Below the pieces are notes generated by a model. That model made no database searches, was not told the DNA's origin, and saw only the letters and a list, made by a program, of their open reading frames with translations. From Prosthecobacter debontii (GTDB lineage Bacteria; Verrucomicrobiota; Verrucomicrobiia; Verrucomicrobiales; Verrucomicrobiaceae): a stretch of DNA of 64,000 nt. The DNA is taken from assembly GCF_900167535.1 (NCBI RefSeq), contig NZ_FUYE01000006.1, positions 124,001 to 188,000 of the forward strand, written 5' to 3'. Position 1 is the stretch's first letter. Every line of letters begins with the position of its first letter. The translations under genes and the position numbers were made by a program. Below, in pieces: positions 1-32,116 of the stretch.

Positions 1-164
1 AAGCCGTGGCCAAGGCGGTGGAGCAGTCCCCCGGCACCGCCCATTTTGTGGATAATCGCAAGACCCTGCCCAAAGACCCGAAATGCTGGCACGACGAGTT
101 CCACCCCACCTCGGAATGGTTCGGCAAAGTCGCCGCCGGCATCAGTGCGCTGATCAAGAAGTGA
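1..164 (+). CDS. C-terminal end of an SGNH/GDSL-type hydrolase (partial)
   Basis: The window opens inside a + strand reading frame (first full codon at 3) that ends at TGA 162-164. The visible 53 residues contain WHDEFHPTSEWF; a D-x-x-H pair in this position is typical of the last catalytic block of SGNH/GDSL esterases and lipases, and the tail that follows (ISALIKK) is a usual C-terminal helix. The N-terminal Ser, Gly and Asn blocks lie outside the window, so the substrate cannot be judged. It ends 57 bp before the subtilase gene and may or may not share its transcript. Confidence 0.55.
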   Translation, partial: AVAKAVEQSPGTAHFVDNRKTLPKDPKCWHDEFHPTSEWFGKVAAGISALIKK

Positions 165-221: not shown

Positions 222-2264
222 ATGTCTCTCTCGATTGATCCTTTCATCTCGATCCACTTTCAGGATCAAACCGAGTCTTTTGGGCCTGATGATGCGGCTG
301 AAGTCATCATCGAAGGTGAACGCAGTCAGGTTGCCGGTGCAGAGGCTTTCGCCGTTGCCCGGGAGTGCTACACCGAGAAGCTGACGCATGAGGAGCAAAG
401 AGCCCGGGCGGCGCAGCCGAATGTGGTCCGTATCACCTCGATGGTGAGAGAGGATCAGGTGGCCGTGCTGGTGCGCCTGCGCAGTCCGGATTGGAAGGTG
501 GATGTGCCGGGGTTCACTCGAAACTCTCAGTTAGGCGATGTGGTCGCGGGACAAGCGACGCAGGAGGCGATCAAAATTTTGGCCAAGGACCGCAATGTCA
601 TCGCCATCGAGGCCAGTCGGCCTGTGGCTGAGGATGGCGATTGCATTCACTCGATCCCCCATGTGAAGGCAACACTGGTGCATGCACCCCCCATTAAGGA
701 AACCGGGAGTGAAGCTCTGGTGGGGATCATCGATTCTGGCATTGATGTGCTGCATTGGGCTTTTCAGGTTCGGGATGCGAATGGGGAGTTCATTCGCAGC
801 CGGATCATCGGTATTTGGGATCAGCGGAGCAGTATGCCGGTCACGCCTCGATCAGCCACCTCAGCGGGGAACACGGCTGGGGCGGATTATCCCCAAGACT
901 ATGGTCGCTATCACTCGGCTGCCGACATCGATGGTTATGTCCGTAGTGGAACTGTGCCGGGGGACCTCGGGCGCAACGATTATCCGCAAGATGGGCATGG
1001 CACGCATGTGACCTCCATTGCGGCAGGCTCCAAGTTTAAGTCGGCGGGGTCTTATGACAGCAAGGATGATCAGCTGGACTTCCCAGGAGGGGTGGCTCCC
1101 GAAGCGGATATTGTCGTGGTGATCCCCAAGCTCACGGCTGCTCCAGGAGATCCCGCCAGTCTGGGTTATTCGGTCTCTCATGTGGATGCCCTAGCTTTCA
1201 TCAAGGAGACGGCCCGTGCGGCGGAGAAGCCGGTGGCGGTGAATGTGAGTCTGGGCATGAATGCCGGGGCTCACGATGGCACCTCCCTTTTGGAATTGGC
1301 GTTTGATCAGTTCAGCGGTGGCGGGCGTGAGCCGGGGCTGGTGATTGTGAAATCGGCCGGTAATGAGCAGACCCATGGAGGGCATGCAGAGGCGGTGGTC
1401 ACCACGGGAGCGACGGCAAGCATCGGGTGGAGTTCGAATTCGCGTCCGCGTGGGCGGGATTACTTGGAGTTTTGGTTCAGATCAGCAGATGATTTGGATT
1501 TTGAATTGTGGTACGCACCACCCACCTCTGGAGTGCTGACGCCCGTCGTTGCGGTGACTCGTGCCACCCCAATGGCCTCACATCCGCTACCGGGTGGGCT
1601 AGGCGTCTGTTACTTGGTTCTGGAGCGGCTGCATCATGACAATGGGGACAGCAGGCTGATCGTCTTGGTGCGTATGAACCAGAACAAGGCTCTGCAAGCC
1701 GCCGGGCAGTGGGAATTGAGGATCACGGGCAAGTCTGTCTTAACCGGTGGCGGGCAGGTGCATGGCTGGGTGGAGCGGGATAACGCGCGTGCGCTTCGAT
1801 TCACCACAGGTGCCGTGCCGGGGAAGGTGGTGAGCATCCCTGGGACAGCGCGCACGGTGATCAGTGTCGGGGCTTGTGATGTGAGCACTCCGCCCAATGT
1901 GCAGTCGTTTAGCAGCCAGGGCCCGGGCCGCGATGGCCGGGAGAAGCCGGAGGTAGCTGCGCCAGGGCATGACATCCTAGCGGCGCAGGCGGGCACCACC
2001 GTGGGTCTTGTGGCCATGCCCGGCACGAGCATGGCGGCCCCGCATGTGACGGGGGCGGTGGCGCTGCTGCTGTCTCATCGGCAGAAGCAGATCCAGGAAG
2101 AAATCAAAAAAGGGGTGCCGCTGCTGGCGCGGAAGCGCATGCTGAATGCGGCGCAGATCCGTGCGGGCCTGAGTCAATGCTCACCTCATTTCACGGGCCG
2201 ATGGGACCCGGGTCTAGGCTATGGCTGCCTGGATGTCGAGCGGTTGTTTCAGATCTTTTTCTGA
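222..2264 (+). CDS. Subtilisin-like serine protease (S8), no signal peptide
   Basis: 680 residues with the complete subtilase triad: Asp171 in GIIDSGID, His262 in GHGTHVTSIAAG and Ser603 in PGTSMAAPHVTG, plus the oxyanion Asn in KSAGNEQ. Residues 1-160 form an N-terminal region that resembles an inhibitor/propeptide fold rather than a secretion signal; there is no hydrophobic leader, so the enzyme is probably cytosolic. About 200 residues are inserted between the His/Asn blocks and the Ser block, including a beta-rich insert (residues ~400-540). It starts at ATG 222 and is followed after 9 bp by the caspase-like gene, so the two are very likely co-transcribed. Cytosolic subtilases beside caspase-like and trypsin-like genes are a recurring theme in bacterial conflict systems (family knowledge); a role in cleaving partner proteins is inference. 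Confidence 0.9.
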   Translation: MSLSIDPFISIHFQDQTESFGPDDAAEVIIEGERSQVAGAEAFAVARECYTEKLTHEEQRARAAQPNVVRITSMVREDQVAVLVRLRSPDWKVDVPGFTRNSQLGDVVAGQATQEAIKILAKDRNVIAIEASRPVAEDGDCIHSIPHVKATLVHAPPIKETGSEALVGIIDSGIDVLHWAFQVRDANGEFIRSRIIGIWDQRSSMPVTPRSATSAGNTAGADYPQDYGRYHSAADIDGYVRSGTVPGDLGRNDYPQDGHGTHVTSIAAGSKFKSAGSYDSKDDQLDFPGGVAPEADIVVVIPKLTAAPGDPASLGYSVSHVDALAFIKETARAAEKPVAVNVSLGMNAGAHDGTSLLELAFDQFSGGGREPGLVIVKSAGNEQTHGGHAEAVVTTGATASIGWSSNSRPRGRDYLEFWFRSADDLDFELWYAPPTSGVLTPVVAVTRATPMASHPLPGGLGVCYLVLERLHHDNGDSRLIVLVRMNQNKALQAAGQWELRITGKSVLTGGGQVHGWVERDNARALRFTTGAVPGKVVSIPGTARTVISVGACDVSTPPNVQSFSSQGPGRDGREKPEVAAPGHDILAAQAGTTVGLVAMPGTSMAAPHVTGAVALLLSHRQKQIQEEIKKGVPLLARKRMLNAAQIRAGLSQCSPHFTGRWDPGLGYGCLDVERLFQIFF

Positions 2265-2273
2265 GTTCCTCCT

Positions 2274-3467
2274 ATGGCGCTGCTTTCGATCCTTCCCGAT
2301 CATCCCGGCCCGGCGACCCATGTGATGGTCATCGGGGTGGGCAGCTACCCGCATCTCAATGGGGGAAGTGGGCCGCTCGCGGCAGAAAATTGGAATCTCA
2401 GGCAATTGAGCAGCGCACCTCTCTCGGCTCAGCACTTCATCCAATGGCTGGTAAAGGAGTATCAAAACCCGGCCGCGCCACTCGCCAGTATCGAGCACCT
2501 CATCTCCAGTCCGCATCAGGTGGCGGATGCCGCAGGGAACCTGCATGAGAGCCAGGAGCCCATCATGGCCAATCTCTACACGGCCTACAAGGATTGGAAA
2601 AAACGGGCGGGCAGTCATCCCGATAACATCGCGCTCTTCTACTTCTGCGGTCACGGTTTGTATAACAACAATGGCACCGCCTTACTCGCGACGGACTTTG
2701 CTGATCCTGAGGTGGATCGCATCGCGCTGAATGCGGTGCATGTGGAGGGTACGGTCAATGGCATGCTGTCCTGTGCCGCCCGGCGGCAGTGCTTTTTCAT
2801 CGATAGCTGCCGCTCGGTGAAGACCTCATGGCAGGAGATGATGGACAGCCCAGGGCAGCCGCTCGGGACGGCGGGGGTCAAAAACCTCTCTGCTGCTCAG
2901 CAGCCGATCTTCTATGCCACAGGCCCCACGCAGGTGGCGCTGGCCCCGGCGGGGGAGGTGAGCCTGTTTACCAAGTCGCTGGTGGAGGCGCTGCAATCTC
3001 TCGCGGCTGTGAACCCCGATGGGGATTTCATCAACGGGCAGTGGGTGGTGGACACCAGTCGGATTGAGGAGGGGGTCAATACGGCTATCAAGATGGACCT
3101 GGCGCTTCGCCCTTGGTTGGAGGGCCCCGAATGTTATTTCGGTGGCAGCGGGAAGCACTTCAATCTGCACCACCTCCCGGGCCGCCCTGCTGTGCCCGTG
3201 GTCATGGGTTGGGATCCCTCCGACCTCAATCAGCGCGCCTCGTTCGAGATTCATTGTGCGGGGGCCATGGTGGCTCAGCGGCCCTATGTGCCACCCACCC
3301 CGCAGCCGCTGGAGCCGTGGGAGTCACGCCAGCCGCCTGAGATCTATCAGGTCAAAGCCGTCCTCGATAACGGCTACATGGTGGCCCGGCAGTTGATCCT
3401 GCAGCCGCCGATGAAGCGGGCCATTTTTACCACGCCTGTTGTTCAGCCACCTCATCCCCCCGTCTGA
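2274..3467 (+). CDS. Caspase-like cysteine protease (C14, metacaspase-type)
   Basis: 397 residues. The first strand, HVMVIGVGSYPHL (16-28), is the usual start of the caspase fold. The catalytic dyad is visible as His127 in FYFCGHGLYNN and Cys179 in CFFIDSCRS. The C-terminal ~150 residues, after the p20-like core, are proline-rich and may be an adaptor or substrate-like segment. No signal peptide, so cytosolic. It lies 9 bp behind the subtilase and its stop is 4 bp before the ATG of the lipase. Bacterial caspase-like proteases act as effectors or activators in abortive infection systems; that this one activates or is activated by its neighbours is inferred from context only. Confidence 0.88.
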   Translation: MALLSILPDHPGPATHVMVIGVGSYPHLNGGSGPLAAENWNLRQLSSAPLSAQHFIQWLVKEYQNPAAPLASIEHLISSPHQVADAAGNLHESQEPIMANLYTAYKDWKKRAGSHPDNIALFYFCGHGLYNNNGTALLATDFADPEVDRIALNAVHVEGTVNGMLSCAARRQCFFIDSCRSVKTSWQEMMDSPGQPLGTAGVKNLSAAQQPIFYATGPTQVALAPAGEVSLFTKSLVEALQSLAAVNPDGDFINGQWVVDTSRIEEGVNTAIKMDLALRPWLEGPECYFGGSGKHFNLHHLPGRPAVPVVMGWDPSDLNQRASFEIHCAGAMVAQRPYVPPTPQPLEPWESRQPPEIYQVKAVLDNGYMVARQLILQPPMKRAIFTTPVVQPPHPPV

Positions 3468-3471
3468 TCTA

Positions 3472-6006
3472 ATGGCCCCTTCCTCTCCAGACCTGAATGC
3501 AACGCTGACCCTCGGTGTCAAAATGGGGGTCGAGGGGATGTCCACCACCGTCCAGGGCACCATCCTCGTGCGCCATGCCTCCGGGGGCTGGACGGAGCAA
3601 AAATCCATCCCGGCAGGACCGCAGCCGGATCTCGTTTCGGTGCCGATCCCCGCAGGGGTTTACTCAGTGGAGGCCACCTTGCCCTCGGGCCTTTCACTGT
3701 GTCTGGAGGGTGAGATCGCTCCGGGGGAGACACAGTCAGTGCTGCTGGCGGGTGAAGAGGCCATGCCTGAGTCCCTGGATTGGTCCAGCTTCGCTTTGTC
3801 GGGCGCGGTTTCGATCCTGGGTAAGGCTAAACGAAGCTTCAAAGAGAAGGTGATGCCGCGGCTCGAAGGGGTCTGGCAGGAGCAAGTGATGCCGAAGGTG
3901 ACTGAAACGATCAGCCGGGAAGGCGCGAAGGTGTATGAGCGCTATCAGTTGCCCATTCGGGAGCGTTTTTCCCTGATGAAAGGCACGGCGTCAGCCTGGG
4001 CCTCCTCCAGCGCGCTCGAGTCCTTGGGAACGGTGCCGACGATGGGCCATGCCTCCAGCATTGAGCTCCCGGAGGCCGTGGGAAATGAGACTTCATTGGA
4101 AGGTCTCGGTGGGGACTTTATGCCCAGCATTCCAGCCGGGACGGGTTTCTTCATGCGGTTTTGGCAGAAGAAAGGTGATGGGAATTGGGAGCCGGTGGGG
4201 GCTAACTGGCCGATCGAGCTTCCTGCGGAGCAGGGGGTGATACAGGTGCCAGTGCCGGTGCACACCCTACCGATCACCCAGGGGCTCATGTTTCTGGTGG
4301 AGATCGGCGGTTTCTCATCCGGCATCTCGGAATTCTGCATGCTGCCTCGGCACTGGAGCGACCGCATGGAGCGTGAGGTGCCAGTCACTTTGGTGATTGA
4401 TGCCCTCACCGAAAATCGACAGGAGACCAGCCTGCCCATCCGTGTGCGAGCCACTGTGCAAGATCCGGATCTCGCTCAGCTGATGAGTGCGATGAAAACG
4501 GCCGATCACCAGGTGGTGGACCATGTCGTGGCGGGCTTGGCGGATGAGTATCTGCACGAGAAAGTGCGCAATCCCCTCATGGCCGCAGCGGCAGCCTTGG
4601 CCTTGCTGAAGATGCGGCAGCTCGAGCTTCTGCGAGATTGGACTTACAATCTGGCCGCTTGGTTTCCCGAGCTGCCGGATGGCCCGGTGATCCGTGCCTG
4701 GCATCTGCTGTTTGGCGCTCCATCCAAAGAGGCCCACGATACCGCTCGGGCGTGGCTGCTGGAGTCCGAGCGGCGCGGGCTGCCCCTGTTTTTTGAAAGC
4801 CTGCGCCTCCTGGTGGATGGTCTTCAGCTCCTCAAATACCCCGAGGAATCTGAGGAGGCTGTCTCCCCTGAGCCCGATGAGGAAGTGACCCGCGCTTTGA
4901 GGCGCTGTCAGAGCTTCCTATGGGCTGCAGATGCCGATGAGGACTTCAATAGCTATCGCGGCACTCATCCGAATGAACCGGGAATAACCAAAAGAAAAAT
5001 CAAGGAATCAGCAGTCCCACGAATTCAACCTCAGCTCTCCCTTATGTCTAACGATACCTCCACTTGCCTTAAAACGAAAGGACTCGATCTCAAAGCCGCT
5101 GTCTTCCTGGCCGAAGCCAGTGCGGAAGCTTACAGCCGTGATCCGAAAACGACGAAAGAATGGGCTGCCGAGCGTGGCTTCACGAACTGCCAACCCTTTG
5201 ACCTGGGGAATATCCAGGGCTTTTGGACGGAGGGAGATGAGGTGGCCATGCTCAGCTTTCGTGGCACCAGCAACATCGGCCAATGGGTGCGGGATGCACG
5301 CATTCTACCCGCAGGGCATGAGTGGGGCTTGGTGCATCGCGGATTCAAAAAAGGGGTCGATATCGTCCACGGTTATGTGGATGCTTTTGCCGCAGTCGCC
5401 GCCACGAAGCCCTACGTCTGGATCACCGGGCACAGCTTGGGGGGAGCGCTGGCCGTCATCGCCGCCGCTAACTTGAAGCTGAAAGGGATCAATGCCAGCA
5501 CCTACACCTATGGGCAGCCCCGTGCCGGCTACATCAATTTTGCCGACAACTTTGATCGGAAGCTCTCGGGCCGCCTCTACCGCTTTATCAATCAAATGGA
5601 TATTGTGGCCCGGCTTCCCCCAGGGTTGCTGTTCAAACATTGCGGGATTCCTAAACGCATTGTTAGGCCTGGCGTGCTGGAGTCTGTCGAGGTCATGCTG
5701 AACGCCGAGTTACCGGTGGAGGCCTACGAGATGCCGGATCTCCTCTACCAGCCTGAGCGGAGGCCGGTGCTACTGGAGCGCCTTGAAGAAGCGGAGATGC
5801 TGGGGCGTCCCCAGATGATCGATTCGGATCTGCCTGCCTTGACGGAGCGTGAGTTTCTGCAATTGCAATTGCAGTTAGGTGTCGCCTCCGAAGGTTATGA
5901 GGAAGGCATTGAGTTCGAAGGCAGTGTGCATAGCCAGGGCCTCTTTGGCGACCATGCCATTGTGAACTACATCAACCTGCTGCGGGAGATCCGGGATCAG
6001 GCCTGA
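3472..6006 (+). CDS. Class 3 lipase-domain protein with long N-terminal region
   Basis: 844 residues from ATG 3472; an earlier TTG at 3439 would overlap the caspase gene and is less likely. The C-terminal third is a class 3 (fungal-type) lipase: nucleophile Ser655 in WITGHSLGGALAV, Asp710 in NQMDIVARLP and His828 in FGDHAIVNYI complete the triad. Residues 1-100 look like a beta-sandwich, followed by an amphipathic helical stretch (~110-180) and a mostly helical middle (~300-480). No signal peptide is present, so the substrate could be the cell's own membrane reached from inside. Placed between a caspase-like gene and a membrane protein gene, it is a plausible lipid-attacking effector that is held inactive until cleaved; this is inference. 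Confidence 0.85.
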   Translation: MAPSSPDLNATLTLGVKMGVEGMSTTVQGTILVRHASGGWTEQKSIPAGPQPDLVSVPIPAGVYSVEATLPSGLSLCLEGEIAPGETQSVLLAGEEAMPESLDWSSFALSGAVSILGKAKRSFKEKVMPRLEGVWQEQVMPKVTETISREGAKVYERYQLPIRERFSLMKGTASAWASSSALESLGTVPTMGHASSIELPEAVGNETSLEGLGGDFMPSIPAGTGFFMRFWQKKGDGNWEPVGANWPIELPAEQGVIQVPVPVHTLPITQGLMFLVEIGGFSSGISEFCMLPRHWSDRMEREVPVTLVIDALTENRQETSLPIRVRATVQDPDLAQLMSAMKTADHQVVDHVVAGLADEYLHEKVRNPLMAAAAALALLKMRQLELLRDWTYNLAAWFPELPDGPVIRAWHLLFGAPSKEAHDTARAWLLESERRGLPLFFESLRLLVDGLQLLKYPEESEEAVSPEPDEEVTRALRRCQSFLWAADADEDFNSYRGTHPNEPGITKRKIKESAVPRIQPQLSLMSNDTSTCLKTKGLDLKAAVFLAEASAEAYSRDPKTTKEWAAERGFTNCQPFDLGNIQGFWTEGDEVAMLSFRGTSNIGQWVRDARILPAGHEWGLVHRGFKKGVDIVHGYVDAFAAVAATKPYVWITGHSLGGALAVIAAANLKLKGINASTYTYGQPRAGYINFADNFDRKLSGRLYRFINQMDIVARLPPGLLFKHCGIPKRIVRPGVLESVEVMLNAELPVEAYEMPDLLYQPERRPVLLERLEEAEMLGRPQMIDSDLPALTEREFLQLQLQLGVASEGYEEGIEFEGSVHSQGLFGDHAIVNYINLLREIRDQA

Positions 6007-6028
6007 TCCCTCAACCCCACGAAAAGCC

Positions 6029-6484
6029 ATGAGTTCGTTCCTCTCTCAACCCGGCGCTCTCAGGGTCGCTCCCAGGCCGACCTTATCCTTGACGGAGGGA
6101 CTGGAATCGGCCGCGTCTCCAGCTCCAGAACCGGAAAAGCCCTACCTGGCGCGCCTGGTCCTGCTCGTCCCGGCGGAGGTCATCTCCTTTTACATGATGC
6201 TCAAGGCGGCTGCGGTGAATTTTCTGCCGTGGTTTGGCCTCATCTGTCTCGCTCTGGTCATTCTGGTGCGGGTCAAGGCGACGGCGGCAGACGGAAAGCC
6301 GGAGTGGATGGGCGTGGGCATCAGCACCGTTTCCTTTGGACTCTGGCTCTACGCTACCGGCGGCTCATTGCCGTGGATCCCGGCACCGACGGATGAGGGG
6401 ATCATCTCCGTCCTCGTCGGCGTCTGGACCTTCCTCGTGCCTTACTACTACACGGGCACTCCGTCGGTGAAGACGAATGTCTAG
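6029..6484 (+). CDS. Small multi-pass membrane protein with LVPAEVI motif
   Basis: 151 residues. The first ~45 are polar and Pro/Ala-rich; then comes a motif ARLVLLVPAEVISFYMMLKA, followed by three further hydrophobic segments (~70-86, ~103-118, ~128-145). Small proteins with a VPAEVI-like first helix are, in my recollection, found beside protease/nuclease conflict genes, but I cannot name the family. It starts 22 bp after the lipase stop and its TAG is part of a GCCTAAC motif region followed by a perfect hairpin. It could be a membrane anchor, pore or sensor for the cluster. Confident that it is a gene, not of its function. Confidence 0.75.
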   Translation: MSSFLSQPGALRVAPRPTLSLTEGLESAASPAPEPEKPYLARLVLLVPAEVISFYMMLKAAAVNFLPWFGLICLALVILVRVKATAADGKPEWMGVGISTVSFGLWLYATGGSLPWIPAPTDEGIISVLVGVWTFLVPYYYTGTPSVKTNV

Positions 6485-6506
6485 CCTAACTAACTTTTGA
6501 ATATGA

Positions 6507-6535
6507 GCCGATCAAATGGTGCCGGTTTGATCGGC
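6507..6535 (+). terminator. 10-bp perfect hairpin after the membrane-protein gene
   Basis: GCCGATCAAA (6507-6516) and TTTGATCGGC (6526-6535) are exact inverted repeats with a 9-nt loop, 22 bp after the stop of the membrane protein and 71 bp before the next gene. There is no T-run, so it could be an attenuator, mRNA-processing hairpin or operator rather than an intrinsic terminator. It divides the cluster into a subtilase-caspase-lipase-membrane unit and a trypsin/nuclease unit. Confidence 0.45.
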
Positions 6536-6606
6536 CTAGGGACACTCCGTTTTCCCCCCCACGCATCTGTCAATGAGCTCTGTATCCATCACATCATCAT
6601 CTCAAA

Positions 6607-8562
6607 ATGAATAAGAAATATCTACATCACTTGCTGAAAGACCAAGCCGTCATGGAGGAGATGGCCGGCCAAGCCTCCACGCTGGAGAGCCTGAATGAAT
6701 CCATTGATTCAGCTCAGTTCTACGAGCTTCTCAGCCAGAATGAAAGCGCCGTCAGCTCAGGATCACTGACCACGGCGGAGGCCATCATTCTGGAGAAGGG
6801 GCGGCCGCCGCTGCTCATTCAGGATGGCCAGTGGGAGGAGCCGAGCCTGACGGAGATTCGCAATTGGCTCAAGCCGACACGCCAGGCTTTGCTCACGGCG
6901 ATCCCGAAGGTGGGGCGGGTGGAGATTTTGAATTTCCAGTCCGACTACATCGGCACGGGCTGGATGATCACCGAGGACTTGCTGATTACCAATCGCCATG
7001 TGGCGAAGGAGTTTGGCAAGCGTGTGGGGCAGACCTTCCAATTCAAGCAGGACTCGGCCATCGGTGGGGAGATGAAGGTGCGGGTGGATTTCCTGCGTGA
7101 GCATGACCGCACCGCCACGGCTCAATTTGCTGTGGAGGAGATCATCTACATCGAAGAAGATAGCGCGGCCCGCCCGGACATGGCGCTGGTGCGGATGAAC
7201 AAATCCAGCGGGCATCTGCCGAAGCCTTTGGAGCTGGACAGTGAGCTGATCTCCAAGGAGCAGACCGTGGCTGTCATCGGCTACCCGGCCTATGATACCC
7301 GCAACGATACCTTTGTGATGCGCAATGTCTTCAAAGGCATCTACGATGTGAAGCGCCTGTGCCCGGGTAAGATCATCGGCTTACGCGGAGATGGGAAAGT
7401 GCTGGAGCATGATGCCTCCACCCTCGGCGGTGCCTCCGGATCTGCCGTGATGAATCTCACCACCGGGAAGATCTGCGGCCTGCACTTCGGGGGCGAATAC
7501 AAGGTGGCCAACGTCTGCGTCAGCGCCGCCTGGCTGCGCTCCCGCCTGGCGGAGCTGGAGCCTCTGCGCATCTCCGGCCTGCTGGCTCAGATGGAGAAGC
7601 GACTGGCAGGGACAGCCACGGAGACTGAACCTGTTCCAGAGGGAGCCGGCCAACCCCCTCCACCTGGAGGAGGCGGCGGTGCTGCAGCCGCAGCAGCGGG
7701 TAGCGGAGGAGGTGGTGGTGCTGGTGAAGAGGGCCGCCCCAGTGGTGGGGCGGGCTATGACCCCAAGTTTCTGGGAAAGAAAGCTGAATGGGAGGTGCCC
7801 CTGCCCGTTCTGAGCTCGAAGCAGGAAGAGCTGATCGCCCCGGTCAAAGACAGTCAGGATGGCCTGCTGCACTACACCCACTTTTCCATCCTCATGAACA
7901 GCGAGCGCCGTCTGCCGTTTTACACGGCGGTGAACATCGATGGTGGTCAGCTCTATAACTTCGTGCGTGGTAACGACCGCTGGTTTCTGGATCCGCGTCT
8001 GAAGAATATCAATCATCAAATCGGCGAGGATTTGTATGTGGGGAATAAGCTGGACCGCGGACACTTGGTGCGTCGTTTAGACCCCACCTGGGGAGCCACG
8101 CGGAAGGAGGCCAAGCAGGCGGAAGACGACACCTTCTTCTTCACCAACTGTAGCCCCCAGCACTCGAAGCTGAATCAGCGCACCTGGCTGAGTCTGGAGG
8201 AATATGTGCTGAGCAATGCCAATACACATGATCTGAAGGTCAGTGTCTTCACGGGTCCAGTGCTGGCTGAGACGGATCGTCCCTACCGGAAGGTGCTGTT
8301 GCCAGAGGACTTCTGGAAGGTGGTGGTCATGGTCAATAAGCACACAGGCACCCTCACAGCCACCGGTTACCTGCTGAGCCAGAGGGACCACATGGGAGAT
8401 CTGGAGTTCGTTTACGGTGCCTTTAAGACCTATCAGGTGGCGCTCTCCGTCATTGAGGAAGCCACGGGCCTGAGCTTCAACCTGTCCGAGTATGATCCCC
8501 TCACTCAGGCCGAGTCCAGAGCCGAGCGTGTGATCGAAGGGCCGGAGGATATGATGCTGTAA
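6607..8562 (+). CDS. Trypsin-like protease fused to DNA/RNA non-specific endonuclease
   Basis: 651 residues. Residues ~100-320 are a trypsin-like (S1/V8-type) protease with His131 (LLITNRHVAKEF), Asp191 (RPDMALVRM) and Ser277 (STLGGASGSAVMN), all intact. A Gly/Ala-rich linker (~352-382) leads to a NUC1-type nuclease (~395-640) with the metal/general-base motif DRGH at 483-486, Asn514 in FFFTNCSPQHS and Asn523 in KLNQRTWLSLE, the EndoG/Serratia-nuclease signature. Residues 1-95 are helical and acidic, possibly an effector-associated adaptor. No signal peptide. The architecture suggests a protease-gated nucleic-acid-degrading effector in the cytosol; the gate is inference. Confidence 0.9.
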   Translation: MNKKYLHHLLKDQAVMEEMAGQASTLESLNESIDSAQFYELLSQNESAVSSGSLTTAEAIILEKGRPPLLIQDGQWEEPSLTEIRNWLKPTRQALLTAIPKVGRVEILNFQSDYIGTGWMITEDLLITNRHVAKEFGKRVGQTFQFKQDSAIGGEMKVRVDFLREHDRTATAQFAVEEIIYIEEDSAARPDMALVRMNKSSGHLPKPLELDSELISKEQTVAVIGYPAYDTRNDTFVMRNVFKGIYDVKRLCPGKIIGLRGDGKVLEHDASTLGGASGSAVMNLTTGKICGLHFGGEYKVANVCVSAAWLRSRLAELEPLRISGLLAQMEKRLAGTATETEPVPEGAGQPPPPGGGGGAAAAAAGSGGGGGAGEEGRPSGGAGYDPKFLGKKAEWEVPLPVLSSKQEELIAPVKDSQDGLLHYTHFSILMNSERRLPFYTAVNIDGGQLYNFVRGNDRWFLDPRLKNINHQIGEDLYVGNKLDRGHLVRRLDPTWGATRKEAKQAEDDTFFFTNCSPQHSKLNQRTWLSLEEYVLSNANTHDLKVSVFTGPVLAETDRPYRKVLLPEDFWKVVVMVNKHTGTLTATGYLLSQRDHMGDLEFVYGAFKTYQVALSVIEEATGLSFNLSEYDPLTQAESRAERVIEGPEDMML

Positions 8563-8596
8563 CACGAGAACGTGGTTTCAGCCGACGTTCTTGAGG

Positions 8597-8628
8597 GGGA
8601 GAGGTGGTGGAGCATCGTCGCCTCTCCC
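8597..8628. other. Imperfect hairpin between the two nuclease genes
   Basis: GGGAGAGG (8597-8604) pairs with CCTCTCCC (8621-8628) across a 16-nt loop, in the 101-bp gap between the trypsin-nuclease gene and the next start at 8664. No T-run follows. It might modulate expression of the downstream gene or stabilise the upstream mRNA. Confidence 0.25.
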
Positions 8629-8663
8629 TCGCCAACGGGGAAGATTCCATTTTAACAGCGTCT

Positions 8664-11600
8664 ATGGCTCTACCGACCTACCCTGCAAATACCGTCTGGT
8701 ATCTGGAGGCCCGCCCCATGAATGTGGGATGGGCCCCGGAGAACCCCAGCAGCATGGGGAGTGCCGTCGCGGTGGAGCTGGAGCATCTGAATGAGCAGGG
8801 GCGGCCCCTACGGCCTGCCCGGGTGCGTAAATACCTGCTGACCTGTGCGCATGTCTGCCGTCAGCCTACCCATGATGGCGTGCTCGGCTGGGGGCCCTTG
8901 CTGGGGGAGCTGCTGTGTTTCCCCCCGGGCTCCAAATACCAGCGGACGACGCCAAATGGACGGAATAGTGGGCAGCTTCCTGGCCCTGAGGTCATGCTGG
9001 CTAAGGTTGTGGCGCAGTGCCCTTCAGGAGCGAGCATGGGCTCGGTGGATCTCTCGCTTCGAGAGGCGAAATACGATTGGGTGCTTCTGGATGTTCAAGA
9101 TCCTGACTTTCAGAAAGTGCCGGTGGTTCGACGTTGGGCTGCGACACTGATTGGTAAAAGGCTCGATATCATTGGTTATCCGGGCGGGGCCGGTATCGTC
9201 GTGCCGAAGGGACGAGGGGAATATTGGGAGACGGGAGACGCGGTGGAGAGTTACCTCGCCGAGGACTTTGCCCAGAAACGGACGCCGGACGAGGGGATGC
9301 TGAAGCCTGAAGGAAAGGATGAGACCCGGCCTGGAATGAGTGGCGGTGGCGTCTTTACCTCCACGGGGGAGTTAGCGGGCATTCATTGCTCTAGCACGGA
9401 CCAGACTCTCTCACGCGGAGCGGTGAGTGCGGAGTTTATTCAGCAATGGCTCAAGGATCAGCAGATACGCCCCGGTCGTGTGCCTCTCTGGGAGCGGGTG
9501 TGGGAGATGGATTTCCTGCCTAGCTTCACACTCCCGCGGGTGCCGCGGGGTGCGTGGTTCATGGGCGTGGCGGGTCTATTGAGCGTGGCCCTGCTGATCG
9601 AGCGGTATGCGCTGCCGCCGAAGACCTATGATTTGGCCATGCAGGTGGCTGCAAAGCGGGATGTGGATGATATCAAAAAGCTTCTGCCCGGGCTGCTAGT
9701 CTCCTTCGAGCCTGATCCGCCCCGACCGGAGCTGGTGGTAACACCCGGGACCACCGATCACACGGGCAAGGCCTCGATCCGTGTTTCCGTGCCGCGTGGG
9801 GCTTCGACAGATTCTCTGCGGGGTTACCTCGTTTGCAAAAATGCTCCTGGGCCGATGAACGATCATGCTCCGCTCATTCTTGAACCCTATGGCAGTGCGA
9901 CGCAGGGTATCCATTCTTATAAAAGCTCGGATGAACTGGATCTTGCCCAAATGGTCCCGACCCAGATCAAACTGCCTACTGTCGTCGCTACGGGACTCCG
10001 CGCTTGGTCTAAGGAGAGGTTTGGTAACCTCATGGGCACTCCGCCCGAGGACTTGTTGAAGCAAGCGCAGGCAACGGGCGAGGACTTGACCTTGCCTTCT
10101 TCAGCTTCGAGCTTTTCGGATAGGCTGGATGCCTCAAAGCTGCTGATGGCTAAGCAAGGCGTGGGTGAAGAGGAGTTTGTTCGGGTAGCGAAGGACTGGG
10201 TTAAGGCGCTGCTTACCCAGAGACCTGTGCTCAGGGTCCAGTCGCAGGTTCCTTATTATAATCGGGATCAAGCCGATAAAAATAAGCGTAGTGTCGCTTC
10301 TGTCGGTGTTATTTACGGTGCGCCAGACGCTTCTGGCCTTCGGCCCTTAGGCAGTGCCTTCGTTGTGGGTCGAGACGTGATTCTCACGGCTCAATCGGTG
10401 ATGACAATCCCCTCCGAAAGCGGTTTTGAAATTGCTTTCACGGATCAGGCGGAGCCGCCTGCTCGAGCCCGGTTAAAGCTGGGTGCGGTGTTGTGGCAGG
10501 ATCGCCAGCGGGAAGTCTGCCTCGTGGAGGTGGAGGGCACCTTACCGCCACCTTTACCGCTCGCTTCCAAACTTCCCAAGCTGCCAGTGGGGCGCTCCAT
10601 TTATGTCGCCGGATATCCTTTTCGTGACTCCCGGTTACCCGATGAGGTGAGTGACCTGTTCCGCAGCAGTTATGGCGCACGCTGTGTGATCCCAGGAGAG
10701 TTGATCGAGCCTCCTTTACGGCAAGCCACAGAGGCGCAGGATAGCCGGGCTGACTCCCACCTGCATTACGACGCCACGACGAGCGGCGGCACCGGTGGTA
10801 GCCCCGTGATTGACCTTCTAACGCAGGCCGTGTTCGCCATCCACTCTCAAGGCATCTGGGATGGCGATCACAAGAACAATCATGGCCCCAGCTTAGCGAC
10901 CTTGGCTCAGGATCAGAGTTTCAATCAACTCATCCTCCAGCATGGCGGGCGCTTCGTCACCGTGGGGGATGCGGTGCTGGCGGAGACGGCAGACTCAGGC
11001 CCGGTGGAGGCAGCGGCGGTGCAGCTCACCGTGCCGTATGATGCCGACTTTCTGGGGGTGAATATCCCGCTGCCGACCCATGCGGATGGCCCCTCCGAGG
11101 CCCCCCTGGACTATGTGTATTACTCTCTAGTCATGGCGCCGGAGAGACGCATGGCACGCTATGCGGTCTGCAATGTGGACCGGCATCGGATGTTGTCCCT
11201 CGCCCGCACAGGAGATCGTTGGTATAGAGACTCCCGCCTGCCGCTGGATCAGCAGATGGAGGCGGCCTTTTTTGTCGGGAATGAATGGGATCGCGGGCAC
11301 CTGTGCCGTGCCTCCAGTCTGCGATGGGGCGAGGTAGCGACCGCCCGCAGCGCCTATCAGAGCGCCTTCTTTCTGACCAATGCCACCCCTCAGCATGCCT
11401 ACTTTAACCAAGGCACATGGCTCCGACTGGAGCGGTCCATTTACGATGAGCTGCATCCCGACTCCGCTCGCATCACCGTCTTCTCAGGCCCGGTCTTCCG
11501 CGATAGCGACATCGAATACCGCGGCTACCGCATCCCCCGTTCTTACTGGATGGTGGCTCTTTATCAAAATGAGAGCGATCCGGCACATCCGCATGTGGAG

Positions 11601-11759
11601 GCCTGCCTGGCGCATCAATACACGCTCCAGCCCGACGGTGGCTATACCCCCCTCGCTCGGAGCATGACCGGAGAGTTCAAGGTTTATGCCACCTCCGTGC
11701 AAGCCATCGAGCAGGAGACAGGCCTGACCTTCACCCTCCCCACAAATTCCGGTCAGTGA
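8664..11759 (+). CDS. Trypsin - TM - pseudo-trypsin - NUC endonuclease protein
   Basis: 1031 residues from ATG 8664. This start is chosen because the beginning, YPANTVWYLEARP, aligns with the start of the paralogue at 11868 (YPRNTVWYIEARP); upstream starts give unrelated sequence. Domain order: an active-looking trypsin domain (His63 in LTCAHV, Asp138 in KYDWVLL, Ser226 in RPGMSGGGVF), a TM helix (~297-317), a linker (~320-540), a second trypsin fold (~545-735) whose catalytic His and Ser are replaced (TAQSV at 575-579; GGTGGSPV at 708-715), and a NUC nuclease with EWDRGH (875-879) and the FFLTNATPQH block intact. The single TM would put protease 1 and the nuclease on opposite sides of the inner membrane unless there is a second unrecognised segment. 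Part of the + strand enzyme cluster. Confidence 0.88.
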   Translation: MALPTYPANTVWYLEARPMNVGWAPENPSSMGSAVAVELEHLNEQGRPLRPARVRKYLLTCAHVCRQPTHDGVLGWGPLLGELLCFPPGSKYQRTTPNGRNSGQLPGPEVMLAKVVAQCPSGASMGSVDLSLREAKYDWVLLDVQDPDFQKVPVVRRWAATLIGKRLDIIGYPGGAGIVVPKGRGEYWETGDAVESYLAEDFAQKRTPDEGMLKPEGKDETRPGMSGGGVFTSTGELAGIHCSSTDQTLSRGAVSAEFIQQWLKDQQIRPGRVPLWERVWEMDFLPSFTLPRVPRGAWFMGVAGLLSVALLIERYALPPKTYDLAMQVAAKRDVDDIKKLLPGLLVSFEPDPPRPELVVTPGTTDHTGKASIRVSVPRGASTDSLRGYLVCKNAPGPMNDHAPLILEPYGSATQGIHSYKSSDELDLAQMVPTQIKLPTVVATGLRAWSKERFGNLMGTPPEDLLKQAQATGEDLTLPSSASSFSDRLDASKLLMAKQGVGEEEFVRVAKDWVKALLTQRPVLRVQSQVPYYNRDQADKNKRSVASVGVIYGAPDASGLRPLGSAFVVGRDVILTAQSVMTIPSESGFEIAFTDQAEPPARARLKLGAVLWQDRQREVCLVEVEGTLPPPLPLASKLPKLPVGRSIYVAGYPFRDSRLPDEVSDLFRSSYGARCVIPGELIEPPLRQATEAQDSRADSHLHYDATTSGGTGGSPVIDLLTQAVFAIHSQGIWDGDHKNNHGPSLATLAQDQSFNQLILQHGGRFVTVGDAVLAETADSGPVEAAAVQLTVPYDADFLGVNIPLPTHADGPSEAPLDYVYYSLVMAPERRMARYAVCNVDRHRMLSLARTGDRWYRDSRLPLDQQMEAAFFVGNEWDRGHLCRASSLRWGEVATARSAYQSAFFLTNATPQHAYFNQGTWLRLERSIYDELHPDSARITVFSGPVFRDSDIEYRGYRIPRSYWMVALYQNESDPAHPHVEACLAHQYTLQPDGGYTPLARSMTGEFKVYATSVQAIEQETGLTFTLPTNSGQ

Positions 11760-11867
11760 GCCCAAAAAATGCTTTATGGGCACACTAGGTGCGGCATAAA
11801 AGAGAGCGCGTGATCACTCCGGTGTGGCATCGAAGTGATAGTTTATCTTTTGAAGGTCTCTCGTGTA

Positions 11868-13166
11868 ATGGCTGCTTTGGAATATCCCCGCAACACCGTC
11901 TGGTATATCGAAGCTCGCCCTGCGGCGGTGAATGATGGCTATGCCCCTGCGGATGCGGCCTCCATGGGCAGCGCCGTGCTCATCGAGCTGCAGCAGGAGA
12001 TCGATCAGGCGGGTGGAAAAAAAGAGGTCCAAGTCACCAGGTATCTGCTGACCTGTGCGCATGTTGTCCGTGCTCCGAGTCAGCAACCGGGGATGCTGGG
12101 GCCCTTGTATGCGGAGATCTTGTGCTTTGAACCCGGAAAGGGCTACATGCGCACTCGGACCGACAGCCGGAAAAGTCTCACGGCTGACGGGGTGCCCTTG
12201 GCCAAAGTTTCTGAATACTCTCCCTGCAAGGGCGTGTCAGGCTCCGTGCCCATGACGCCCCAGACGGACTGGGTGCTGCTCAAAGTGGAGGGGGATAAGG
12301 CCTTCAAGTATAAGGAGGTGGCACGCTCTTGGACCAAAGACACGGTTGAGTATGGTGAGGTCACCATCATCGGGTATCCGGGTGGGGCGGGTCGGGAAGA
12401 TTATTTGGAAACGGGTGCAGCGTGGGACAATACCCGGATCGTGGAAAACCTACCCACGAAAAATTGGCAGCAAAACCGCACCCCGAAGCCAGGGCTGCTG
12501 ATGCTGGATGGTATCATGGCCGCCCCAGGGATGAGTGGAGGTGGAGTTTTTACTCAGGAGGAAAATCTGCTCGCAGGTATTCACCGGGCAAATACACCCG
12601 CAGTCCTTGCCCGCGAAGCCGTCAGTATTCAAAGCATCCGTGACTATCTGTGGAGCATGCATCGGCTGAGTCCCGTGCCACCTTCGCGTGACTTCGTGCC
12701 GATACCTCAACCCGAGTTGCCATGGAAGCATTGGGTAGGGCTTGGAGTGATCTTGATCCTACTCATTGGGGCTGTATGGGCATGGCCGTTTCAAACAAAG
12801 AAGCGGGATGATATAGTCTTGAAAGAGGAGGTGCCTCCACCCGTGATCCCCGCAGATGTCACTGCGCAGTTCACGGTCTACTCCAACCACAACAGTGCCG
12901 GAAACATCCTGGTCCGCCTGAAGGTCAAAGGTGAACAAAGTCAATGGCAGGAGGAGCGCAGATCCGATGAACTGGGGAAGGTGAGCTTCCCCATCCCTGG
13001 AGCCCTCAGCAAGGCGAAGTTTAAGGTCAGTCTGCCTGAGTATGGAGCGGCTTTTCAAGCCACGGATTATACCCTCCGAGAGAAGAGTTTTCCACTCAAT
13101 GTGCCGCCAAAGCCGGGTGAGTATCAACCCTTCAAAATTTCCGAACCCGCCGAACAAAAACCATGA
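11868..13166 (+). CDS. Membrane-anchored trypsin-like protease
   Basis: 432 residues from ATG 11868. The protease domain (1-270) is a close paralogue of the first domain of the preceding 1031-residue protein: His65 in LTCAHVVRAP, Asp134 in QTDWVLLKV, Ser223 in APGMSGGGVF. One TM helix follows (~288-307, VGLGVILILLIGAVWAW), then a ~110-residue beta-rich C-terminal domain that may face the periplasm. The stop overlaps the next start as ATGA (13163-13166), implying translational coupling to the secreted protein downstream. The cytosolic trypsin/periplasmic sensor arrangement, N-in, suggests a transmembrane signalling protease; orientation is inferred, not shown. Confidence 0.87.
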   Translation: MAALEYPRNTVWYIEARPAAVNDGYAPADAASMGSAVLIELQQEIDQAGGKKEVQVTRYLLTCAHVVRAPSQQPGMLGPLYAEILCFEPGKGYMRTRTDSRKSLTADGVPLAKVSEYSPCKGVSGSVPMTPQTDWVLLKVEGDKAFKYKEVARSWTKDTVEYGEVTIIGYPGGAGREDYLETGAAWDNTRIVENLPTKNWQQNRTPKPGLLMLDGIMAAPGMSGGGVFTQEENLLAGIHRANTPAVLAREAVSIQSIRDYLWSMHRLSPVPPSRDFVPIPQPELPWKHWVGLGVILILLIGAVWAWPFQTKKRDDIVLKEEVPPPVIPADVTAQFTVYSNHNSAGNILVRLKVKGEQSQWQEERRSDELGKVSFPIPGALSKAKFKVSLPEYGAAFQATDYTLREKSFPLNVPPKPGEYQPFKISEPAEQKP

Positions 13167-14455
13167 CATTGCGAGCCTTTCGATTCATTTTAACCTTGAG
13201 TTGGAGTCTGGTGGGGTTTGCCTCTTTTGCAGAGGACTATCGCCGGGTGGATTTGGAGTTTCAGGTGCTCTATGTCGAGTATGAAAACGGAGGTTTCGTA
13301 GAGCGTCCGCTCCCCCAGGTGTTTATCACGGTTCGCGGAGATGAATGGAAAGTCGGTCCAGGGACTCAGGTGGGTTATACGGAATTGAAAGGGAAGGTCT
13401 CCAACATCACGGATTTGGTCGTCGATGTGCCCAACTCAGTCCCCAAAGGAACCGCTAAAGCCTACTTGAAATTTGAAGGCAATCAGCCTTGGGGACTCTC
13501 CGAACAATATTTGATCTGGCGTCATGGATATCATGAATTCACTCATGATCTCCCCTTCGATGTGGAGCTAAACCCTCCTGATCTTGTGATATTGGTGCCC
13601 GTCAAACACGCTGCGGCATACTACGACGCTCATGTGGCCAAGGTTCACAACGACCGAAAGTTGCGAAACTACTTTGGTCAAGCCGTGATCGTGATGGGGG
13701 GGCTCGACTTGCCGCCGGGGGTCGAGCTGAGCACCTCATTGGATAAACAGAAAGAGCAGACCATCCATCAGATGGCTTCCTTTTGGGGCATCGAACCTCA
13801 ACGTGTCAAAAGCGATTTCGACGCTTGGGCGAAGCGGATCGAAAAAGCCGATGGGTCCGAAACCAGTTACCAGGATAAAATCCTCGCCCAAGTCTATCAA
13901 GGTCACTACGACCGAGCGGCGATGACCGCGCGGCTTTACGCTGATGCCGTGGGCATCGTGAGCCCCCAACAAACGATTGAAGCGGCTCAACTGACTCGTG
14001 GGGTGAACCTGGCTTGGAGTCGAGACCTTTACACGAATAACAAAGATTTTGCCAAAGCCGACGAGGTCAGGGAGGAAGCGTATCGAGCGGAGGCCAAACT
14101 CCAAGAGTATATCTCCCTTTACGAAGAAAAGGGGATCAAGAATTCGTCCCCTGATTCGACTCCATGGTTGATCCGCGATCTCGATCCCAAGCAGACGAAT
14201 CCGGACGATGACACCAAGCTCGATGCCCAATCATACAAGCAATGGCTGATCAATCCGAATGGCGGGCGCCAGCCGACGATTTGGATCGACCCAAGCAAAG
14301 AGAAGTATCAACTCCACAAAAAAGGCTGGGAGTTTGATGCATCGAATGAAGCGACTCCGATCACTCCGAAAACGGATAGTCCCTACCTCAAAAAGCAATG
14401 GCAGTTCGACTTCGACAAAAAGCTCCGATCTACAGAGGGCTTTCCATCCAAGTGA
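13163..14455 (+). CDS. Secreted protein of unknown function, coupled to the TM trypsin
   Basis: 430 residues. Residues 1-23 are a signal peptide (LTLSWSLVGFASFA followed by E), so the product is exported. Residues 24-165 look beta-rich (many alternating hydrophobics), and 200-340 are mainly alpha-helical with repeated Glu/Lys/Ala segments (TPR-like character but no clear repeat seen). No catalytic motif is recognised. Its ATG is embedded in the stop of the membrane-bound trypsin (4-bp overlap), so it most likely works with the periplasmic domain of that protein, for instance as ligand, sensor or inhibitor; this is inference from coupling. Confidence 0.75.
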   Translation: MTLRAFRFILTLSWSLVGFASFAEDYRRVDLEFQVLYVEYENGGFVERPLPQVFITVRGDEWKVGPGTQVGYTELKGKVSNITDLVVDVPNSVPKGTAKAYLKFEGNQPWGLSEQYLIWRHGYHEFTHDLPFDVELNPPDLVILVPVKHAAAYYDAHVAKVHNDRKLRNYFGQAVIVMGGLDLPPGVELSTSLDKQKEQTIHQMASFWGIEPQRVKSDFDAWAKRIEKADGSETSYQDKILAQVYQGHYDRAAMTARLYADAVGIVSPQQTIEAAQLTRGVNLAWSRDLYTNNKDFAKADEVREEAYRAEAKLQEYISLYEEKGIKNSSPDSTPWLIRDLDPKQTNPDDDTKLDAQSYKQWLINPNGGRQPTIWIDPSKEKYQLHKKGWEFDASNEATPITPKTDSPYLKKQWQFDFDKKLRSTEGFPSK

Positions 14456-21078: not shown

Positions 21079-21322
21079 GATCTTGAGGGAAAACAACCCC
21101 TAACCAAAAGATGGAAATTAGGTCTAAAGTCCTAGATGAAGGGGTGGAGCTAAGTGGCTAAACTGGAAAAGTCACTTATAAGAGGAAAGGGGCTCTGCTT
21201 GTCAATGTGTAAGTCAACTGCTTTTGAGTCACAATTTGTGCGAAGTTACAAACTCTGGATTCGTGATGGTTTTCCAGAAGTTGGGAGAGGATCTTACGCT
21301 CGTCATACCCCAGGGCAGGCCA

Positions 21323-29198: not shown

Positions 29199-30182
29199 AT
29201 GAAAACCTCCCCTTACGTTGCCTTTTATCCATCCGACTTCCTGCTGGGCACCATGTGCATGACCAGTGAGGAGGTGGGGGCCTACATGCGTTTGCTTTGT
29301 TTTCAATGGCAGCAGGGCGGTATCCCGCAGGAGGAGGATAAGCTGGCGCGTATCTCCGGCATCCCGGCGAAAAAGCTGAGCGCCGTGCTGACCAAATTTG
29401 AGCTCCACGAAGACGGCCTGCTGAAAAACCGTCGCATGGAGGCGGAGCGTGTGAAGGTGGAATCCTTTCGCGATAAACAGGCTGAAAGAGGTAAAAAAGG
29501 GGGGCGTCCACGTCGGTCCGTAGAAAGCCCAACCCAACCCGTAGAGACCCCGCAGGTGACGTCCGAGTTAAGCCCAACAAAAGCCACGGAAAACCCGCGG
29601 CTTTTCTGCGGGTTAAGCCAAACGAAATCCGGAAAAAGCCAATCAGAAACAGAATCAGAAACAAAAACAGAATCATCTCTCCCCCTGAACCCCCCAGGGG
29701 GAAGGGTGGAGGAGAGCGAGAGAAGGGAGGGCTTTTCAGCCGATGAATCCCCAACCCTAAGCCAAGCTCAGACAGCCTCTCAGGCCCATCCACCTCCGCA
29801 TGATGATCTCGATCCAGCGCATGTCGATGTCCATGCCCATGCCAACGCTCCGGAAACCAGCCTAACGACAAGGGTGGTATCGAAGGTGGAGCCTGGCCCA
29901 CCACCGCAAACGCGAACCCACACCCCAGGCTGGCATCCCTGTGCGGAGCAGATCCAGATCGGCTCATGGTTCAATCGCCGCCCCAGCACGGTGTGGAGTG
30001 ACAAGGAGCAAAAGGTCTGGAAGGCCCTGCGCCTGGAGGAAGAGGACCTGGAGATCCTGCAATGGTTCTACACCGAGAGCGGCTGCCGTTACCTGCGTCA
30101 GGACCTCCTGACCCTGCTGAACAACTGGCGTGGCGAGGTGGATCGCGGCCGCAATTTCAACCCCGAGGAAAACCGCCGATGA
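29199..30182 (+). CDS. DUF1376-type phage replication protein
   Basis: 327 residues. Residues 1-90 are the DUF1376 domain found in phage replication initiators: YVAFYPSDFLLGTMCMTSEE followed by VGAYMRLLCFQWQQGGIPQE and ARISGIPAKKLSAVL. Then comes a basic helix (RDKQAERGKKGGRPRRS), a long Ser/Thr/Pro/Glu-rich linker, and a C-terminal helical region (KVWKALRLEEEDLEILQWFYTE) that may contact the helicase. The stop overlaps the DnaB start as ATGA (30179-30182), showing translational coupling; DUF1376 plus DnaB/DnaC-like pairs are standard phage replication modules. Confidence 0.85.
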   Translation: MKTSPYVAFYPSDFLLGTMCMTSEEVGAYMRLLCFQWQQGGIPQEEDKLARISGIPAKKLSAVLTKFELHEDGLLKNRRMEAERVKVESFRDKQAERGKKGGRPRRSVESPTQPVETPQVTSELSPTKATENPRLFCGLSQTKSGKSQSETESETKTESSLPLNPPGGRVEESERREGFSADESPTLSQAQTASQAHPPPHDDLDPAHVDVHAHANAPETSLTTRVVSKVEPGPPPQTRTHTPGWHPCAEQIQIGSWFNRRPSTVWSDKEQKVWKALRLEEEDLEILQWFYTESGCRYLRQDLLTLLNNWRGEVDRGRNFNPEENRR

Positions 30183-31636: not shown

Positions 31637-31699
31637 AGGGCGCGGTAAGCAGTGTTCAGTGATCGGTTTTCAGTGTTCAGTGTTGTTGGAATGCGAGAA

Positions 31700-31770
31700 G
31701 GGTTTTTAGACAGGATGGACACGATTTTCAGGATTAACAGGAAGTGTAGAATGGTAAAAGCATGTGAAAC
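31700..31770. repeat. Degenerate AATCCTGT-family repeat
   Basis: GACAGGATGGACACGATTTTC followed by AGGATTAACAGG is a diverged member of the family seen at 25735, 27335 and 62921, single and without its opposite partner. It follows the helicase gene by about 65 bp. Confidence 0.45.
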
Positions 31771-32008
31771 GTAGGGTGGGTTTGTTATGCATTCGAGGCG
31801 GCATGCATCTCGAAGCCCGTTGCAGAATAACCCGCCTATCAGGGAGGGTGACACGCTCTCGCCTCCACGCCCAAGGAACGATGTGCTCAAGGGACTCTTC
31901 CTCCCATGCCCCATCTGAGAGCTGCACGATCTTCTCCGCCAGGCGGGTTATCCGGCTACGAGATCCTGCGTGTTAAGGTGCCTCCCATGCCGGACAAACC
32001 CGCCCTAC
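31771..32008. mobile_element. 238-bp inverted-repeat element (MITE-like)
   Basis: Left end GTAGGGTGGGTTTGTTATGC and right end GGACAAACCCGCCCTAC are imperfect inverted repeats; inside, AATAACCCGCC (about 31826) and GGCGGGTTAT (about 31942) form a second inverted pair. Related by its ends to 28164 and 28369. No coding capacity seen. Confidence 0.55.
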
Positions 32009-32116
32009 CGTTTTGCGTGTAAGGCCTCATTGGAAGGGATGAAAATGATGAAACACATCACGTTAGACTTGATTCATTTGAGGTCTGGGTTTAGTCTCGG
32101 CCTCGAGTGAGGTTGG

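Follow-up and report, generated by a model that had tools for sequence, protein, structure and literature searches.

We analyzed a 64,000-nucleotide stretch of the 6.29 Mb genome of Prosthecobacter debontii (C6:124001-188000, hereafter the window), in which eight plus-strand open reading frames (ORFs), all open and tightly packed, span positions 222-14455. An initial annotation had listed them as genes for a subtilase, a caspase, a class 3 lipase, a small membrane protein, three trypsin-type proteins and a coupled secreted protein, and had proposed a protease-driven death or defence system. The ORF listing, the Pfam matches and the positions of catalytic motifs confirm these kinds (Table 1). 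Six of the eight proteins have a Pfam family match, while g4 and g8 match no family above the cut-off. Below, we weigh the reading of this cluster as a hybrid of two published kinds of system, one run by a caspase and the other by trypsins fused to nucleases.

Table 1. Genes of the cluster in the P. debontii window (coordinates are window positions; NUC, Endonuclease_NS domain; TM, transmembrane segment; g3N, N-terminal domain of g3)
Feature	Position	Strand	Description
GDSL-lipase-like gene, 3' end	1..164	+	whole gene L181:17119-18165, 348 aa, starting before the window
g1	222..2264	+	subtilisin-like protease S8, 680 aa; Pfam S8 1.9e-34; D/H/S motifs present
g2	2274..3467	+	caspase-family protease C14, 397 aa; Pfam C14 6.9e-8, above the curated cut-off; H127, C179; CanA-like position
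g3	3439..6006	+	g3N domain (residues ~1-530; CanB-like position) fused to class 3 lipase; Pfam Lipase_3 6.1e-23 at 605-728
g4	6029..6484	+	small membrane protein; hydrophobic segments 40-58 and 62-80
g5	6607..8562	+	trypsin-linker-NUC; Trypsin_2 2.2e-15 and Endonuclease_NS 1.2e-49; LypC-type architecture
g6	8604..11759	+	trypsin, TM 319-337, pseudotrypsin, NUC; two Trypsin_2 9.4e-24 and Endonuclease_NS 1.3e-32
g7	11835..13166	+	trypsin with one TM segment, 301-319; Trypsin_2 9.4e-11; trypsin motifs intact
g8	13163..14455	+	possibly secreted (by eye), no family; start overlaps g7 stop

The annotated extent holds for the genes it contains but not for its start: a GDSL-lipase-like gene is probably the first gene of the cluster. 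It ends 57 bases ahead of the S8 gene on the same strand, carries the motifs EGDSWF, GGNDL and DEFHPT, and matches Pfam Lipase_GDSL_2 below the cut-off (2.7e-6; 28.5 bits against 32.9). We count it as likely belonging to the cluster on account of its homologues, which occur joined to trypsin-AAA_16-TPR in Luteolibacter flavescens (6.1e-135) and to trypsin-NUC in the genome G547 (1.2e-57). Paralogue alignment and gene overlap place the likely true starts of g3, g6 and g7 at 3472, 8664 and 11868, respectively. At the other end, the coupling claimed for g8 stands, but its signal peptide is a by-eye reading, since no hydrophobic segment was found in g8 at the threshold used; none was found either in g1, g2, g3 or g5. 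No homologue of g8 was found in the loci searched.

PADLOC models for caspase, subtilase, nacht and RT-protease systems match the protease domains, and others such as IetS and LmuA do so weakly; g3, g4 and g8 have no PADLOC match, and neither Pfam nor PADLOC scans gave a gasdermin match among the eight ORFs. Promoter-like sites (6 against 5.5 expected) and terminator-like sites (18 against 13.2 expected) were counted, and no operon claim is based on them. The full set of eight genes was seen in no locus besides the window. g3N is absent from all same-genus genomes searched, and in two of these genomes (G005 and G034) only the NUC part of g5 was matched; the cluster was probably acquired by its host.

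The caspase and g3N form a conserved core. Residues H127 and C179 of g2 are invariant in the three sequences aligned (g2 and two relatives), and the similarity of g2 to caspases of loci bearing a metallo-beta-lactamase (MBL) nuclease covers up to 96% of its length, in Streptomyces; a PDB search with g2 returned nothing meaningful. g3N corresponds to Pfam PF27295 as assigned to its homologues, a family not returned by our own Pfam scans. When g3N was searched by tblastn over 72,556 plasmid records, nine matched, and a caspase match lay directly upstream in all nine; matches to the MBL nuclease and to the caspase were found in 72 and 55 records, respectively. We examined 22 plasmid loci in detail, to which g3N had led in 7 cases, the MBL gene in 3 and the caspase lists in 12 (L183, the same record as L173, being counted once); several are closely related, so that counts among them are not independent. 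A g3N profile was built from eight sequences, none of them plasmid-borne (the window, P0001, the N-terminus of P0002, P0003, P0124, P0125, L168 and L163). It recognized the gene following or fused to the caspase in 18 of the 22 loci, including 8 of the 12 from the caspase lists; in the remaining four, the caspase is broken (L180, L197) or distant (L198, L199). When 17,130 sequences were scanned, no ORF outside the family scored better than 0.0027, and three chosen negatives were not listed.

In Rhizobium and Streptomyces, what the profile matches is the gene flanked by caspase and MBL nuclease; in Bosea, it is the part fused to the caspase. In a genome of the host's own family (G158), the Gabija genes GajA (2.6e-222) and GajB (1.5e-203) come first, and right behind them lie a caspase gene (1e-27 to g2), g3N and an MBL nuclease of 366 aa (LmuA 8.4e-66, Avs1a 5e-47). 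In another genome (G037) the contiguous order is S8, NUC, caspase (7e-33), g3N and a C25-like peptidase, and on Sinorhizobium meliloti pAK76 the pair lies beside genes annotated as TrlF-family and restriction endonuclease. The low-confidence structural model of g3N comprises beta-sandwich and helical parts; Foldseek found nothing at E <= 0.001, and its weak beta-sandwich matches were not used as family evidence. Viral contigs held no relative according to the caspase and g3N alignments. One further g3N match, in G618, was dropped: the protein carries HEAT, DUF7133 and cytochrome c parts and was not listed by the later profile. In Bryobacter, an ORF with a weak profile match (L028:14360-15838, plus strand; 0.0027) has a gene for trypsin-NUC and a class 3 lipase of divergent sequence in its vicinity.

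The layout of caspase, g3N and MBL nuclease is that of Canu (CanABC), a caspase-activated nuclease system of antiphage defence, active against T4, in which a CanAB complex turns on CanC (Tuck et al. 2025, PMC12799240). What adjoins the pair varies, however: each of the 18 caspase-g3N plasmid loci carries exactly one of three candidate effector types, with zero overlap. An LmuA/Avs1a-type MBL nuclease lies directly downstream in eight (L176, L177, L178, L184, L185, L186, L190, L191), with a PADLOC LmuA match of 1.8e-51 or better in each. Members of a single hydrolase-like family lie directly upstream in eight others (L174, L175, L179, L189, L192, L194, L195, L196), a ninth member occurring next to the broken caspase of L197. 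The remaining two (L173, L193) encode a fusion of g3N, trypsin and phospholipase D (PLD), with an M12 peptidase gene ahead of the caspase. Dealt at random among 18 loci, two sets of eight would show zero overlap with a chance of 0.001, a figure to be read in light of the non-independence of the loci. Two MBL loci have further lipolytic neighbors, a Tle1-like phospholipase upstream in L177 (2.3e-71) and a divergent patatin near the pair in L178 (5.2e-18). A GHSLG motif is present in five of the nine hydrolase-like proteins, and the two that were scanned give sub-threshold alpha/beta-hydrolase matches in Pfam. The genes without this motif adjoin caspase-g3N genes, fusions or a broken caspase, and may be regulators or have another activity.

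From locus to locus, one and the same pair is thus accompanied by hydrolytic enzymes of different kinds, as neighbors or as fusion partners. This is our strongest, if comparative, argument that the lipase of the window is a caspase-run effector. A further hypothesis would make Canu a single branch of a broader immune family, in which caspase and g3N are the constant trigger and the effector is exchanged: MBL nuclease, hydrolase-like family, trypsin-PLD, Endonuclease_NS or class 3 lipase. The version in the window would then kill on two fronts, with a caspase-released lipase attacking the membrane and a trypsin-released nuclease attacking nucleic acid, which would be a bacterial counterpart of the lytic and DNA-fragmenting death that caspases drive. 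This broader proposal is tentative, and we hold it at somewhat less than even odds.

The lipase part of g3 shows the motifs GHSLGG at 664, MDIVAR at 720 and FGDH at 836. In Luteolibacter ambystomatis, a stand-alone lipase (48% identity over 316 residues) is followed, with a few bases of overlap, by a g4 homologue (59% over 156), and the two lie downstream of a trypsin-NUC gene and a g7-type trypsin. This arrangement suggests that lipase and g4 are a unit, which in the window has been fused to g3N. Of 15 genomes of the host's order that have a g5 match, three carry a homologue of the window lipase within 10 kb of it (0.024 expected, P = 2e-6; expected numbers of neighbors here and below assume random placement and are rough).

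The trypsin-nuclease arm is widespread, with at least 910 homologues of g5, one of which (P0005) is 90% identical to it. Both the trypsin and the NUC motifs of g5 are present: the triad H131, D191 and S277 and the NUC residues H486 and N514 are invariant in all 31 aligned sequences, and the PDB matches are to V8-type proteases and NucA. AlphaFold2 models two domains with better confidence, separated by a linker (residues ~319-376) whose predicted local distance difference test (pLDDT) score is 27-45 at residues ~333-376; this linker is probably disordered, which would be consistent with release of the nuclease by cleavage. In g6, the first trypsin and the NUC domain are intact and the second trypsin has lost its His, Asp and Ser motifs, as the term 'pseudotrypsin' in the annotation implied. 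g7 is a paralogue of the first g6 trypsin (1.2e-55). The TM-pseudotrypsin part of g6 shows no similarity to a 731-aa protein of L144, with which it was compared. Neighborhoods of g5 relatives were counted in 43 genomes, out of at least 80 loci. At least 6 of these genomes have an S8 protease no farther than 10 kb away (0.9 expected, P = 3e-4); Lipase_3 is that close in one (0.1 expected, P = 0.1), and we claim no association of Lipase_3 with trypsin-NUC across bacteria.

Do the two halves form one system? One protein (P0002) carries g3N, trypsin and NUC in a single chain, and a Bradyrhizobium plasmid brings together, within 21 kb, S8 and trypsin, a caspase with the g3N-trypsin-PLD fusion, two M12 peptidases and a trypsin-NUC gene. 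Because of this grouping and of the direct fusions of g3N to trypsin-NUC and trypsin-PLD, we favor a single system over two neighbors. We thus propose, with a probability of roughly 0.6, that the cluster is a hybrid of Canu and the NucA-trypsin type, an abortive-infection system in which the activated caspase releases the lipase and sets off trypsins that free the nucleases. The catalytic motifs, the caspase-g3N pair, the Canu-type layout and the g3N fusions can be read from the sequences; defence by cell death is what we infer. The proteolytic cascade of the initial annotation accordingly appears largely right: the protease sites are intact, parts of the set are conserved neighbors, a cascade has been predicted for NucA-trypsin systems (PMC7159879) and Canu offers a precedent (PMC12799240). 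The shared neighborhood it had expected is seen for caspase and g3N, for lipase and g4, for the S8-NUC-caspase-g3N run of G037 and for lipase near trypsin-NUC, but not as another complete locus. We found no evidence for its suggestion that the TM trypsin and the secreted protein act as a sensor branch; by analogy with CanAB, caspase and g3N would be the better candidate.

In the hybrid system, a complex of caspase and g3N would sense infection, by analogy with CanAB. A cut between g3N and lipase would free the lipase, which may be held at the membrane with g4. The trypsins of g5-g7, triggered either on their own or through the caspase, would cut the linkers of g5 and g6 and free NUC, and the g6 pseudotrypsin may dock substrate. 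The lipase, with g4 and the GDSL enzyme, would damage the membrane and NUC would damage DNA or RNA, so that the infected cell would die of membrane damage and loss of nucleic acid.

The principal competing view, which we consider rather unlikely, is that two separate systems adjoin each other, a Canu-like operon of caspase, g3N and lipase and a NucA-trypsin operon of the kind described by Kaur et al. (2020), each with its own trigger. Given the inferred starts, gaps of ~100-120 bases separate g4 from g5, g5 from g6 and g6 from g7, as this view would have it, and in the stretches examined of the 22 plasmid loci a g5-type trypsin is found only in L173 and L193 (the L173 record has a trypsin-NUC gene farther out). 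The scattering of g5 relatives and the lack of NUC matches in these plasmid loci, both described below, also favor this view. The fusions, however, speak against two systems, as do the contiguity of caspase, g3N, NUC and S8 in G037 and the presence of five parts in 21 kb of the Bradyrhizobium plasmid.

Several further observations weigh against the hybrid reading or parts of it. The widespread g5 relatives are in part scattered singly, the pattern that the initial annotation had set against its own proposal: a caspase lies within 10 kb in just 2 of the 43 genomes (0.32 expected, P = 0.04), weak evidence on which we claim no general coupling of caspase and trypsin-NUC across bacteria. In the stretches examined, the 22 plasmid loci yielded no match to the window NUC and none to its class 3 lipase. 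g3N is rare, occurring in 2 of 387 genomes of the phylum including the host (up to four candidates scored per genome), and its model is poor (mean pLDDT 48). Its presumed likeness to CanB of Klebsiella aerogenes is one of gene position and, tentatively, of described parts. The MBL nuclease, which is the Canu effector and there a pro-nuclease with gating insertions, is present in relatives but has no Pfam match among the eight ORFs. The closest relative of g3N (P0001, 81% identity) ends without a lipase, so that the g3N-lipase fusion is recent or dispensable. Four of the nine hydrolase-like genes (L189, L194, L196, L197) lack GHSLG and the Pfam matches of the family are sub-threshold; its members are perhaps not lipases. 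Finally, the nuclease may not be the killer, or not the sole one, because in the Caulobacter trypsin-endonuclease protein LypC the trypsin is needed for lysis and the endonuclease is not (PMC13236601).

LypC also inspires a different reading, in which the cluster would serve controlled lysis in the manner of LypABC, bursting cells to release phage-like particles or during development, with nucleases as accessories. g5 shares the LypC architecture, LypABC is needed for the lysis that releases gene transfer agents (PMC13236601), L. flavescens has trypsin-amidase, trypsin-AAA and trypsin-AAA-GDSL proteins beside trypsin-NUC, and phage-like genes lie at 30-36 kb of the window. We nevertheless regard this role as improbable: no AAA or STAND NTPase domain was matched by Pfam among the eight ORFs (CARD was not searched for), and the SIR2-like, TIR-bearing and PifA-like genes around the window, together with MBL nucleases and Gabija in relatives, point to defence. 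Secretion of protease, lipase and nuclease for feeding or predation would fit the set of activities and the possibly secreted g8, but we find it highly improbable, as g1, g2, g3 and g5 have no hydrophobic N-terminal segment and the caspase-g3N pairs of G158 and pAK76 have genes of defence for neighbors.

The surroundings of the cluster contain other genes of note. Upstream of the window on the same strand (L181:8386-16851) are genes for an LRR-Roc-COR-TIR protein (1235 aa) and a SIR2-like protein (1519 aa), both likely immune, which suggests a defence island. A KAP NTPase gene at 21323-23596 (minus strand), 7 kb downstream of the cluster, matches the PADLOC model of PifA (8e-46), the phage-exclusion protein of F. 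The minus-strand ORF at 18187-21096 encodes a 969-aa protein with a zinc-protease-like HEFGH motif, seen by eye; neither PADLOC nor, above the cut-off, Pfam gave a match for it. A prophage or its remnant may be marked at 30062-35541 by DnaB-like helicase and Clp protease genes. Four minus-strand ORFs at 36190-41801 and 47439-49100, paralogous by eye and one of them with two repeats, show HG and SCGG patterns resembling the His/Cys dyad of clan CD; they have no Pfam match and are possibly caspase-like peptidases of a new kind. In L. flavescens (L145 and L170), genes for trypsin-beta-helix-amidase, trypsin-AAA_16-TPR-GDSL and trypsin-AAA_22 proteins accompany two trypsin-NUC genes and a class 3 lipase, resembling a cell-lysis arsenal.

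If the hybrid reading is true, Canu and NucA-trypsin systems, which have been described separately, would be joined in one modular caspase-run family, and lipases would be added to the effectors expected under bacterial caspase control. This raises the questions of whether a bacterial caspase activates a lipase, and whether membrane attack and DNA cutting go together as in animal cell death.

How does the cluster compare with known systems? With Canu, the cluster shares a caspase that has its catalytic His and Cys and, next to it, a gene placed like CanB; in relatives this pair precedes LmuA-type MBL nucleases. Ig-like and TPR parts have been described in Canu-type loci (PMC12799240), with a C-terminal Ig-like domain on the caspase, and the beta-sandwich and helical parts of the low-confidence g3N model may resemble them. 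The cluster differs in that a lipase fused to g3N and trypsin-NUC proteins would be its effectors. The word 'lipase' does not occur in the main text of the Canu paper, and the missing MBL nuclease keeps us from filing the cluster as Canu. The NucA-trypsin 'System 3', for which Kaur et al. (2020, PMC7159879) proposed a proteolytic cascade, has several copies of trypsins that adjoin Endonuclease_NS or are fused to it, part of them carrying TM segments, and S8 proteases in some loci, features shared by g1, g5, g6 and g7; in contrast, the text examined does not mention a caspase, g3N, class 3 lipase, g4 or a GDSL enzyme in System 3. EAD1 or a STAND NTPase occurs in a subset of System 3 loci; Pfam gave no STAND or AAA match among the eight ORFs, a scan that did not cover EAD1. 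LypC is a trypsin-linker-endonuclease protein like g5, and CARD-NLR variants use phospholipases or endonucleases (PMC13236601); such systems have genes for an NLR-like ATPase and for a CARD-trypsin-ATPase protein, whereas our eight ORFs show no ATPase or NLR match. In the nuclease-protease pairs of Hachiman, AVAST, Lamassu and DRT, a protease frees a gated nuclease (PMC12799240), but this nuclease is of the MBL fold and a separate gene, while Endonuclease_NS here sits on the trypsin chain. Literature searches within the library used returned no title or abstract start describing the combination of caspase, g3N and lipase. The initial annotation did not recognize the combination, which is fair for the whole, but each of its halves belongs to an already published kind.

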